From Aquabacterium sp. A3 (GTDB lineage Bacteria; Pseudomonadota; Gammaproteobacteria; Burkholderiales; Burkholderiaceae_C), in assembly GCF_038069945.1 (NCBI RefSeq), contig NZ_JBBPEV010000002.1:461369-525368 (forward strand): a stretch of 64,000 nucleotides of DNA, given 5' to 3'. The notes under the pieces are model-generated. The model was given only the letters and a program-made list of their open reading frames with translations. It did no database searches and was not told where the DNA came from. Below are positions 23,507-26,554 of this stretch, in pieces (position 1 is the stretch's first letter; every line of letters starts with the position of its first letter). The position numbers were made by a program, and so were the translations under genes.

Positions 23507-24283
23507 ATGAAACATTTCACCGCTACTGTGGTCGCCGCTGCCGCCTTGGTGGCCGCCGGTTCGGCCAGCGCCGCGCTGGTCACGATCAATGCCAATGATG
23601 GCTTGATCGACGGCGCTGGCACGCTCACCTTCAGCGAAAATCTGCGCAACGCCCTGAACGTGGGTGCCGTCACGGCAGAGGCCTTTGGTGACGCCACCTC
23701 GGCCATCACCGGCGCGCCGGGCGCTTACACCAACATCGCCGTGTCGGCACCTGTCACCTCGCTGGTGTACGACGACACCACCAACCAGGTGACCAAGGTC
23801 TTCACGTCGGGGGGCGCACGACAGGTGGCTGGCAATGTGCCTGGCGTGTCGGGTGGCGGCTGGGTGGAAGTCGGCAACCTGGAAGTTGATCTGCTCACCA
23901 GTGAAATTTTCGGCACCATCGTGGGTCAAAGCGATGCTGGTGCGTCCGTGAACTACTACGGCAAGCTGTTCACCATCGGATCGGTCACAGGCGACACGAC
24001 CCTGCCATCGCCAGCCAGCACTGGTTTCACGACACTGAGCACGCTGGCGCTGGACTCGGCGGCTTTCACCCAGATCTCCAACGCTTTGGCCTTGCAATTC
24101 CTGGGCAGCGTGTCCTTGCAGGCGGCATCCAGTGATTTCGGTACCATCGAGTCGGCCATCTCCAATCTGATACTCACCCCCCCCCCCCCGGTGCCATCGA
24201 TCCCTGAGCCCTCCACCTACGCGCTGATGGGGCTTGGGCTGGTGGGGTTGGCTGCGGCGAGGCGTCGGCAAGTCAAGGCCTGA
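23507..24283 (+). CDS. PEP-CTERM secreted protein, paralogue 1 (with poly-C tract)
   Basis: A 258-residue protein with a signal peptide (AALVAAGSASA, cleavage before ALVTIN), a domain of about 200 residues shared with the next genes, and a C-terminal PEP-CTERM signal: IPEPSTYALMGLGLVGLAAA, then Arg-Arg-Arg. Such signals are recognised by exosortases, which are not in this window. It differs from paralogues 2 and 3 by TPPPPVPSI just before the signal, coded by 13 consecutive C. One inserted or lost C would end translation before the anchor. The biological role is unknown. Confidence 0.88.
   Translation: MKHFTATVVAAAALVAAGSASAALVTINANDGLIDGAGTLTFSENLRNALNVGAVTAEAFGDATSAITGAPGAYTNIAVSAPVTSLVYDDTTNQVTKVFTSGGARQVAGNVPGVSGGGWVEVGNLEVDLLTSEIFGTIVGQSDAGASVNYYGKLFTIGSVTGDTTLPSPASTGFTTLSTLALDSAAFTQISNALALQFLGSVSLQAASSDFGTIESAISNLILTPPPPVPSIPEPSTYALMGLGLVGLAAARRRQVKA
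24177..24189 (+). repeat. Homopolymer of 13 C in the first PEP-CTERM gene
   Basis: Thirteen C in a row encode the four prolines directly before the sorting signal. Reading one base longer gives a TGA after Gly-Ala-Ile-Asp-Pro. Reading one base shorter gives a TGA 12 codons after the tract. Either way the PEP motif, membrane helix and Arg cluster are lost. Paralogues 2 and 3 have no such tract. Confidence 0.85.
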
Positions 24284-24300
24284 TAACAGCCTAAGGTATG

Positions 24301-24334
24301 AATAAAAATGGCGGGTTTACCCGCCATTTTTATT
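24301..24334 (+). terminator. Terminator after PEP-CTERM paralogue 1
   Basis: A perfect 15-bp stem whose arms each hold AAAAATGGCGGG or its complement, with a TTTA loop and a T-run in the right arm. The symmetrical A and T tracts would make it work in both directions. Confidence 0.88.
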
Positions 24335-24522
24335 GGCGCTCTGAATTCACCCCAATGGGTTTCGATATTCCGCTTGCGCCGCATGAGGAAACTGTTTGTG
24401 AAATAGCGCACAAATGCTGCCCATGCGTTGCACTTCAGGCCATCGAGAAACGAACGCTTGCGCGTGTTACGCCTGTTGCAAAAGAGATTCCTGAAGTTGG
24501 GGGTTAATACCGGATTCGAGCC

Positions 24523-24539
24523 TGCAACCCCGGGTTGCA
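24523..24539. promoter_or_regulatory. 17-bp palindrome upstream of paralogue 2
   Basis: TGCAACCCCGGGTTGCA is a perfect inverted repeat around a central C, about 90 bp before the start codon. It is a candidate operator for an unidentified dimeric regulator. Confidence 0.4.
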
Positions 24540-24628
24540 ATGGGCTCGTGCGGGGTGGACAGGAAGATGCGGGCGCCTGATTCACCTCCCCCTACAAAAG
24601 ACCCGCTGTCAATCGAGTGGAGAAAGAC

Positions 24629-25381
24629 ATGCAATTTGCAATCAAGAGCCTGGTCGCTGCCGCGGCCTTCGTGGCGGCCGGCGCGGCCAGCGCTGCCCTG
24701 GTGACCATCAACGCCAACGACCCCAGCTCCGGCTACATCATGGAGGGCTCTGGCGCCCTGACCTTCAGCGAAAACCTGCGCAACGCCCTGAACGTGGGCA
24801 GCGTGACCGCTGATGCCTTTGGCGCGGCAACCTCGGCCATCACTGGTGCGCCGGGTGCTTACACCAACATCGAAATCGGCGCGCCCGTGACGTCGCTGGT
24901 GTACGACGACGCCACCAACGAGGTGGTGAAGGTGTTCACCTCGGGTGGTGCCCGTCAGGTGGCTTCCAACGTGCCCGGCGTTTCTGGCGGCGGCTGGGTG
25001 GAAGTGGGCAACCTCGAGGTTGATCTGGTCACCAAGGAGATCTTCGGTACCATCGTGGGCCAAAGCACCGCTGGCGCTGCCGTGAACTACTCGGGCAAGA
25101 TCTTTTCGATCGGTGCCGTCACGGGCGACACCGCCTTCCAGGTGGGCACCGCCAACACGGCACTGACCACCCTGGCGCTGGATGGCGTGGCCTTCACGCA
25201 GATTCAAACCGCCTTGGCGCTGCAGTTCCTAGGTACGGTGTCTCTGCAAGCGGCCTCGGCCGATTTCGGCAACATCGCCTCCACGATCACCGTGACGGCC
25301 GTGCCTGAGCCCTCCACCTACGCCCTGGTGGGCGCCGGCCTGCTGGCCGTGGCTGTGGCGCGTCGCCGCGCAGCCAAGTGA
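24629..25381 (+). CDS. PEP-CTERM secreted protein, paralogue 2
   Basis: A 250-residue protein: signal peptide (AAAAFVAAGAASA), the shared domain with SGALTFSENLRNALNVGSVT and GGGWVEVGNLEVDLVT, and the ending VPEPSTYALVGAGLLAVAVA followed by Arg-Arg-Arg. The ATG at 24629 follows GGAG at 8 bases. It is close in DNA sequence to paralogue 3, including a 59-bp exact match. The function is unknown; the sorting signal suggests surface or matrix localisation. Confidence 0.9.
   Translation: MQFAIKSLVAAAAFVAAGAASAALVTINANDPSSGYIMEGSGALTFSENLRNALNVGSVTADAFGAATSAITGAPGAYTNIEIGAPVTSLVYDDATNEVVKVFTSGGARQVASNVPGVSGGGWVEVGNLEVDLVTKEIFGTIVGQSTAGAAVNYSGKIFSIGAVTGDTAFQVGTANTALTTLALDGVAFTQIQTALALQFLGTVSLQAASADFGNIASTITVTAVPEPSTYALVGAGLLAVAVARRRAAK
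24755..24813 (+). repeat. 59-bp exact repeat, copy 1 (paralogue 2)
   Basis: Identical to 25928-25986 in paralogue 3, in the same orientation, 1,173 bp apart. Such identity inside otherwise diverging genes suggests recent duplication or gene conversion. Confidence 0.85.
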
Positions 25382-25801
25382 TTTTTCACGCTGCGGCGTG
25401 ATGTTCACGAGCGGGGCTTGCCCCGCTTTTTCTTTTGGTGCTGTACTTGCCTGGATGTGCGCCAGCAAGGTGCAACAGAGTGTGACAAATCCTTCAGGGT
25501 GTCCGTGTCTTGCCCCTTCGTTTTTTGGCGGTCTGGCGACGGTTGGCGGGTGCGTTCCCAGGGGACGCGCGCTGAGCCCAGGGGGTAACCCCCACACCTG
25601 AACGAGGGGGGTATCGCCCGAAATTGGTGCTTTCCTGATGCAGAACGCACATGCCTAGGGGGAACGAGAGGTTGTGTTTAATGCGATGCGGGCCCTATGC
25701 TTACGACAACAGGTGCCAAGGTGCATCTGGGTTGGAACAGGAGTACGCGGATGCCTGTTACAGCAACAGATTCAAAGGGCCGCTTTCAAGTGGAGATAGA
25801 A
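25382..25801 (+). other. Intergenic region with terminator and G-rich boxes of paralogue 3
   Basis: This 420-bp gap contains the terminator of paralogue 2 and no plausible gene. Its second half carries CCCAGGGGGT (25577-25586), GGGGGGT and CCTAGGGGG (25654-25662). The last 100 bp lead to a GTGGAG ribosome binding site. Confidence 0.6.
25410..25435 (+). terminator. Terminator after PEP-CTERM paralogue 2
   Basis: AGCGGGGC (25410-25417) pairs with GCCCCGCT (25420-25427) across a two-base loop and is followed by a T-rich tail. Confidence 0.85.
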
Positions 25802-26554
25802 ATGAAATTTGCGATCAAGAGCATCGTCGCTGCTGCCGCTTTCGTGGCCGCTGGTGCCGCCAGCGCCGCCCTGGTGACCATCGACGCCAACGACCCCAGC
25901 TCCGGTTTCATCATGGAGGGCTCTGGTGCCCTGACCTTCAGCGAAAACCTGCGCAACGCCCTGAACGTGGGCAGCGTGACCGCTGAAGCCTTCGGTGGCG
26001 CCACTTCCAGCATCACCGGCGGTCCTGGCGCGTACACCAACATCACCGTTGGCGCACCCATCACCTCGCTGGAATACGACGACGCCACCAACCAAGTGAC
26101 CAAGGTGTTCACCGCTGGCGGCGCCCGTCAAGTGGCTGGCAACGTGCCTGGCGTGTCCGGTGGCGGCTGGGTTGAAGTCGGTAACCTGGAAGTGAACCTG
26201 GTCACCAACGAAATCTTCGGCACCATCGTGGGCCAAAGCACCGCTGGCGCTTCCGTGAACTACTACGGCAAGCTGTTCACCATCGGCGCTGTCACTGGCG
26301 ACACCACCTTCCAAGAAGGCACCGCCCTGACTTCGCTGAGCACCCTGGCTCTGGACTCGGCTGCATTCACCCAGATCTCCAACGCTCTGGCCCTGCAGTT
26401 CCTGGGTTCGGTGTCCCTGCAAGCCGCTTCGGCTGACTTCGGTAGCATCGCTTCGTCGATCACCGTGACCGCCGTTCCTGAGCCCTCCACCTACGCCCTG
26501 ATGGGTCTGGGTCTGGTGGGTCTGGCCCTGGCTCGTCGCCGCGCCGCCAAGTGA
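25802..26554 (+). CDS. PEP-CTERM secreted protein, paralogue 3
   Basis: A 250-residue protein with a signal peptide, the shared domain (TSLEYDDATNQVTKVFTAGG, ALALQFLGSVSLQAASADFG) and the ending VPEPSTYALMGLGLVGLALA followed by Arg-Arg-Arg. Its codons include more T-ending forms (GCT, GGT) than paralogue 2, which may mean high expression. It has GGAG 7 bases before the ATG, its own G-rich upstream region and a strong terminator, so it is probably transcribed alone. Confidence 0.9.
   Translation: MKFAIKSIVAAAAFVAAGAASAALVTIDANDPSSGFIMEGSGALTFSENLRNALNVGSVTAEAFGGATSSITGGPGAYTNITVGAPITSLEYDDATNQVTKVFTAGGARQVAGNVPGVSGGGWVEVGNLEVNLVTNEIFGTIVGQSTAGASVNYYGKLFTIGAVTGDTTFQEGTALTSLSTLALDSAAFTQISNALALQFLGSVSLQAASADFGSIASSITVTAVPEPSTYALMGLGLVGLALARRRAAK
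25928..25986 (+). repeat. 59-bp exact repeat, copy 2 (paralogue 3)
   Basis: Partner of 24755-24813. Crossover between the copies would delete the region between them and fuse paralogues 2 and 3 in frame. Confidence 0.85.

Follow-up and report, generated by a model that had tools for sequence, protein, structure and literature searches.

Repeat-driven switching of protein C-termini is already known from several bacteria. In Helicobacter canadensis, C-terminal phase variation was described for eight genes with variation at the level of reads (PMC2823697); in Neisseria gonorrhoeae, it is caused by late homopolymers (PMC5320596); and in Streptococcus agalactiae, a 2010 study (as cited in PMC5320596) describes the repeat-driven loss of C-terminal wall-attachment motifs. 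Here we analyse a run of 13 consecutive C residues (C13) near the end of a gene for a PEP-CTERM protein of Aquabacterium sp. A3. The gene lies in a 64,000-nucleotide stretch of DNA (the window; contig NZ_JBBPEV010000002.1, positions 461,369 to 525,368), and the tract is a candidate for C-terminal phase variation acting on a PEP-CTERM signal. Bordetella belongs to the same order as this bacterium. In Bordetella pertussis, G/C runs of 8–11 were found at mixed lengths within single cultures, and for bapC of one strain all 93 of 93 colonies were mixed at an age of ∼23 generations (PMC1891110).

Like the G-runs of tcfA and bapC in B. pertussis, the tract is a G/C homopolymer in a surface or secreted protein gene, and the two bacteria are related; however, tcfA carries its run at codon 130, where a shift abolishes the protein, and variation was measured there (PMC1891110). 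The S. agalactiae case is close in another respect: whether a surface protein keeps its C-terminal attachment signal depends on simple repeats late in the gene, as would be the case for the tract gene, but there the attachment is to a Gram-positive wall, whereas the tract gene belongs to an exosortase system and no length variation has been seen in it. The homopolymers of H. canadensis and N. gonorrhoeae are also late and of similar length (e.g. G11–G14 in H. canadensis) and alter the C-terminus alone, as predicted for the tract; in those species the variation was shown at read or strain level, whereas the tract is known from one assembled length. The word ‘anchor’ is absent from the accessible H. 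canadensis text (PMC2823697).

Our literature searches found no slippage case for a PEP-CTERM protein and nothing joining Aquabacterium with phase variation. A PEP-CTERM protein is listed near an invertible-DNA group in PMC11892184, and thus DNA inversion near PEP-CTERM genes has been reported; PMC3048395 handles PEP-CTERM and phase variation as separate topics. PepA, a floc protein of Aquincola, is like the tract protein a PEP-CTERM protein of a related group, and the accessible text on it does not mention phase variation (PMC9850573). The similarity of the tract protein to the floc_PepA model is full-length but weak (28 bits, under the cut-off of 80). An earlier interpretation of the window made from the letters alone (the sequence-only reading) knew of no such case among PEP-CTERM proteins; this stands as far as slippage is concerned, whilst the principle itself had precedents in Streptococcus agalactiae, Helicobacter and Neisseria.

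The tract gene (23507..24283, + strand) encodes a 258-aa protein and is the first of three paralogues. Its assignment follows from the open reading frame, frame and translation together with a match to PF07589 (E 7e-8; 32.6 bits against a cut-off of 20.7 in the profile search). The N-terminus resembles a signal peptide by eye, being hydrophobic with ASA at residues 20–22. In the predicted structure a folded domain with an HtaA-like fold covers residues 22–220 (23570..24166, +) and stops ahead of the tract. The run itself (24177..24189, +) makes up codons 224–228 of the linker (ACC CCC CCC CCC CCG; T224 and P225–P228, TPPPP), and the PEP-CTERM signal follows at residues 231–254 (24197..24268, +; profile match to PF07589). 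The run is thus in frame between domain and signal, where the sequence-only reading had placed it.

Translation of the other two frames agreed with its further claim that single-base changes lead to early stops. Gain of one C adds five new residues (GAIDP) before a stop at 24205..24207 (+), giving a 233-aa product; loss of one C adds 12 (RCHRSLSPPPTR) before a stop at 24225..24227 (+), giving a 239-aa product. Both shifts remove the PEP motif, the helix and the Arg cluster and keep the domain, given its modelled end at residue 220, whereas changes in tract length by three keep the frame. The tract gene has two features of C-terminal phase variation: a long, late repeat, and alternative frames that alter the C-terminus and leave the body of the protein in place. 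The second paralogue (24629..25381, +; 250 aa, 76% identical to the first) and the third (25802..26554, +; 250 aa, 81% identical to the first) both lack the run, also as first described.

In the mechanism that we propose, the C13 run encodes a proline stretch of the flexible linker between the folded domain and the exosortase signal. A long G/C homopolymer of this kind is very likely to undergo frequent single-base insertion and deletion when the DNA is copied. At in-frame lengths (10, 13, 16 … C), the protein would carry the PEP-CTERM signal and could be processed by exosortase; out of frame, it would be nearly whole and exported but lack the signal, and would either remain in the periplasm or be released. 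The net effect would be a reversible sorting-on/sorting-off mutation. The analysis establishes the tract, its frames, the modelled domain end ahead of it, the signal and the exosortase genes of this genome; from the analogy with Bordetella, we infer that the tract would be unstable in length. The genome has a MutS gene; instability is likely even so, since C13 is longer than the G/C runs that vary in B. pertussis. That a length-unstable run toggles the sorting signal as a simple physical consequence is, in our view, slightly better than an even proposition. That the switching is put to adaptive use we consider rather doubtful. A shade more doubtful is the fullest version, a simple-repeat contingency locus acting on an exosortase signal, which would be the first of its kind, with replication slippage in a free-living Gram-negative bacterium sorting one member of a tandem family to the surface or matrix cell by cell whilst its tract-less paralogues are sorted constantly.

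The serious rival is a neutral proline linker, in which CCC codons arose by chance and by whole-codon slippage, selection keeps the frame and frameshifted cells are mere mutants with no switch; we judge this quite possible, if short of probable. To gauge chance, we fitted Markov models to the window with the tract left out; these gave 0.85, 0.09 and 0.01 expected runs of at least 13 per genome at orders 1, 2 and 5, respectively. The codon usage of the 42 other genes of the window (the tract gene left out, and the result scaled to an assumed 3.4 Mb) gave 0.47 per genome in coding sequence. With the peptide NLILTPPPPVPSIPEP held fixed, synonymous codon choice alone produced a run of at least 13 with P = 0.04, using a codon usage that took in the tract gene itself. 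Runs of at least 12 are present in 18 of 42 same-genus genomes (25 runs, of which some lie at a contig end or next to gaps or N). Because such runs are common in the genus, and given the model expectations, a single long run in a genome is unremarkable. A neutral linker is also consistent with the linker lengths of 7–26 residues across 65 aligned homologues, which suggest a tolerant linker, and with PPP in place of PPPP in the nearest homologues. However, about 51 runs of at least 9 were expected in coding sequence, against 12 distinct C/G runs of that length found in the whole 3.83 Mb genome (seven of 9, two of 10, two of 11 and one of 13), and so long runs are seemingly selected against. No C/G run in the genome is longer than the C13 tract, and no other reaches 12. 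What stands out is its location rather than its existence, and this was recognised only in hindsight. Of the 57 PEP-CTERM matches of the genome, 56 lack any C/G run longer than 5 within the 90 nt upstream, the exception being the tract gene. The chance of a random run landing in such stretches is about 57 × 90 / 3,830,283 = 0.13%, a post-hoc figure that a proline-rich linker raises (compare the 4% of synonymous-codon draws). Likewise, a motif script that returned 146 candidate PEP-CTERM ends in the examined loci, some of them plainly false, found no run longer than 6 besides the tract. That none of the other PEP-CTERM matches (57 in all) has such a run argues against a neutral linker, and we return to it below since it also bears on the switch.

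Ribosomal frameshifting on the CCC run would leave the DNA unchanged, with a small, constant fraction of the protein made without its tag. CCC-C motifs do shift in Escherichia coli, at up to 1% at the second codon, but this is mostly suppressed by m1G37 tRNA modification and EF-P, and the second codon is the most shift-prone position (PMC4519876), whereas the tract is at codons 224–228. As the explanation of the tract, frameshifting is very improbable, although +1 shifting could add a small, constant tag-less share. An error of assembly or sequencing in the run length is marginally less probable again: the genome is a draft of 28 contigs (the tract gene sits on one of 529 kb), but 13 C yields an intact, in-frame PEP-CTERM signal, and the independent homologues P0002 and P0003 share the linker minus one proline. 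Transcriptional slippage, giving mixed mRNAs and hence mixed proteins, would fit a long homopolymer inside a gene; however, the homopolymer insertions reported for E. coli and Buchnera were all in A or T runs, with G and C runs not prone to them (PMC5574713), and we regard it as extremely improbable.

Returning to slippage in the DNA as the basis of a switch, several observations weigh against it. The PEP-CTERM signal is kept in 113 of 113 homologous clusters (some with homologues named Aquabacterium), and among these clusters we found no length variant and no out-of-frame relative of the tract gene; the clusters were made at 90% identity and could hide truncated copies. PPPP near the end occurs in P0001 alone, and its close relatives P0002 and P0003 are a whole codon shorter there, with PPP; these two are known as proteins only, and their run lengths are deduced from the one proline fewer. 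Across the 42 same-genus genomes there were 1,489 PEP-CTERM matches, and the best 150 of these included no cut-off signal except at contig ends (three lay in open frames of at most 60 aa, two of them at contig ends and the third beginning at base 99 of its contig). Within the genome itself, the remaining PEP-CTERM genes are not preceded by such a run, and, as described below, runs of 12 lie in frame in ordinary genes of relatives. The missing variants are weak evidence, since clusters at 90% identity may hide truncated copies and the comparison contained neither reads nor sister genomes. Close relatives at the DNA level were not found: among 60 relatives, the top full-length hit from any genome but its own was 49% identical, and in a family-wide sample of 299 genomes, each scored for at most eight candidates, the own genome alone matched at E 1e-45 or better.

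The sequence-only reading had held that mixed tract lengths of 12, 13 and 14, in reads or related genomes, would support switching, and that long homopolymers are hot spots for slippage. As to the former, the nearest homologues proved one proline shorter with the frame kept, as judged from proteins, and no out-of-frame relative of the 12 or 14 type came to light among the clusters. As to the latter, the Bordetella precedent (PMC1891110) makes instability likely, but no length variation of the tract gene was seen.

To explore how such runs behave elsewhere in the genus, we examined the 24 runs of at least 12 in the other same-genus genomes and scored 20 for coding flanks. Two had the same frame on both sides (L098 and L112), two had different frames (L086 and L091) and 15 were unresolved or non-coding; one more (L096) was taken as in frame, though its downstream flank was the only one to score as coding. 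The in-frame 12-base runs fall in three ordinary genes of two relatives, which encode an SRP54-type GTPase, a histidine kinase and one further protein; none of them shows signs of switching, as a neutral linker would have it. The two genes that seem out of frame at G12 speak for switching. In the first of these (L091, 1501–1512), an Acyl_transf_3 (PF01757) gene is split across two frames, which could mean that an enzyme modifying the surface is in its phase-off state, or that the sequence contains an error. In the second (L086, 1501–1512), from another same-genus genome, the frame of a secreted-looking alpha/beta-hydrolase gene changes, which may likewise be a phase-off allele or a sequencing error. 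The in-frame C12 of L096 (1501–1512) encodes prolines in the N-terminal region of the SRP54-type GTPase, taken for FtsY. FtsY is essential, and for this reason implausible as a switch; this run serves as a control that cautions against calling every poly-C run a switch.

The genome encodes three exosortases above NCBIfam cut-offs (one XrtA and two XrtB), alongside its 57 PEP-CTERM matches. In the model given in PMC12188702, a protein is retained in the inner membrane by its C-terminal signal for as long as exosortase has not cut this off; how it then crosses the outer membrane is there called unclear. In Aquincola, PepA contributes to the retention of exopolysaccharide on the cells (PMC9850573). 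For the truncated protein we infer a fate from these models: lacking its signal, it may become trapped in the periplasm instead of being released. The sequence-only reading had proposed phase variation between anchored and released protein; its anatomy was right, but ‘released’ went too far, and the in-frame C12 runs in ordinary genes temper the proposal as a whole. Since PEP-CTERM is a signal that exosortase removes, ‘sorted or not sorted’ is the safer wording. If the tract varies, it would supply a natural pair of on and off alleles for one PEP-CTERM protein, with which the part of the exosortase signal in surface or matrix delivery could be probed, and it would take C-terminal phase variation beyond host-associated bacteria, into a free-living group (a lifestyle deduced from the groundwater and reactor origins of the records). 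If the tract is invariant, it would be a warning against taking each long homopolymer in a proline linker for a switch.

The domain ahead of the tract is modelled with the fold of the corynebacterial haem-binding HtaA domains. It shares this fold with the haem-binding domains of HtaA, HtaB and ChtA of Corynebacterium, at an identity of only 10–13%. In HtaA-type domains, a His has a role in the haem pocket, and H434A variants are listed for an HtaA-type haem-binding domain. Unlike these domains, the mature part of the tract protein has no His; the same holds between signal peptide and PEP-CTERM for 43 of the 65 members, the tract protein among them, whilst Y74 is conserved in 58 of 65. In the sequence-family search of these 65 members, no Pfam family besides the C-terminal motifs matched more than one, and a PDB profile search with the domain gave no match at E <0.1. 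A Pfam match of the tract protein to 3-dmu-9_3-mt was weak and under its cut-off, and was dropped; a DNA ligase in the solved-structure profile search (E 0.25–0.31) was taken as chance.

Two further observations concern the neighbourhood and the genome. The metagenomic proteins P0003 and P0004 look as though the first and third paralogues (window 23507–26554) had recombined reciprocally; the tandem array may therefore swap C-terminal ends by recombination, or the pattern may reflect assembly chimaeras. Elsewhere in the own genome, a C11 run (L067, 1501–1511) precedes, by a few codons, the likely start of a gene for a methyl-accepting chemotaxis protein.
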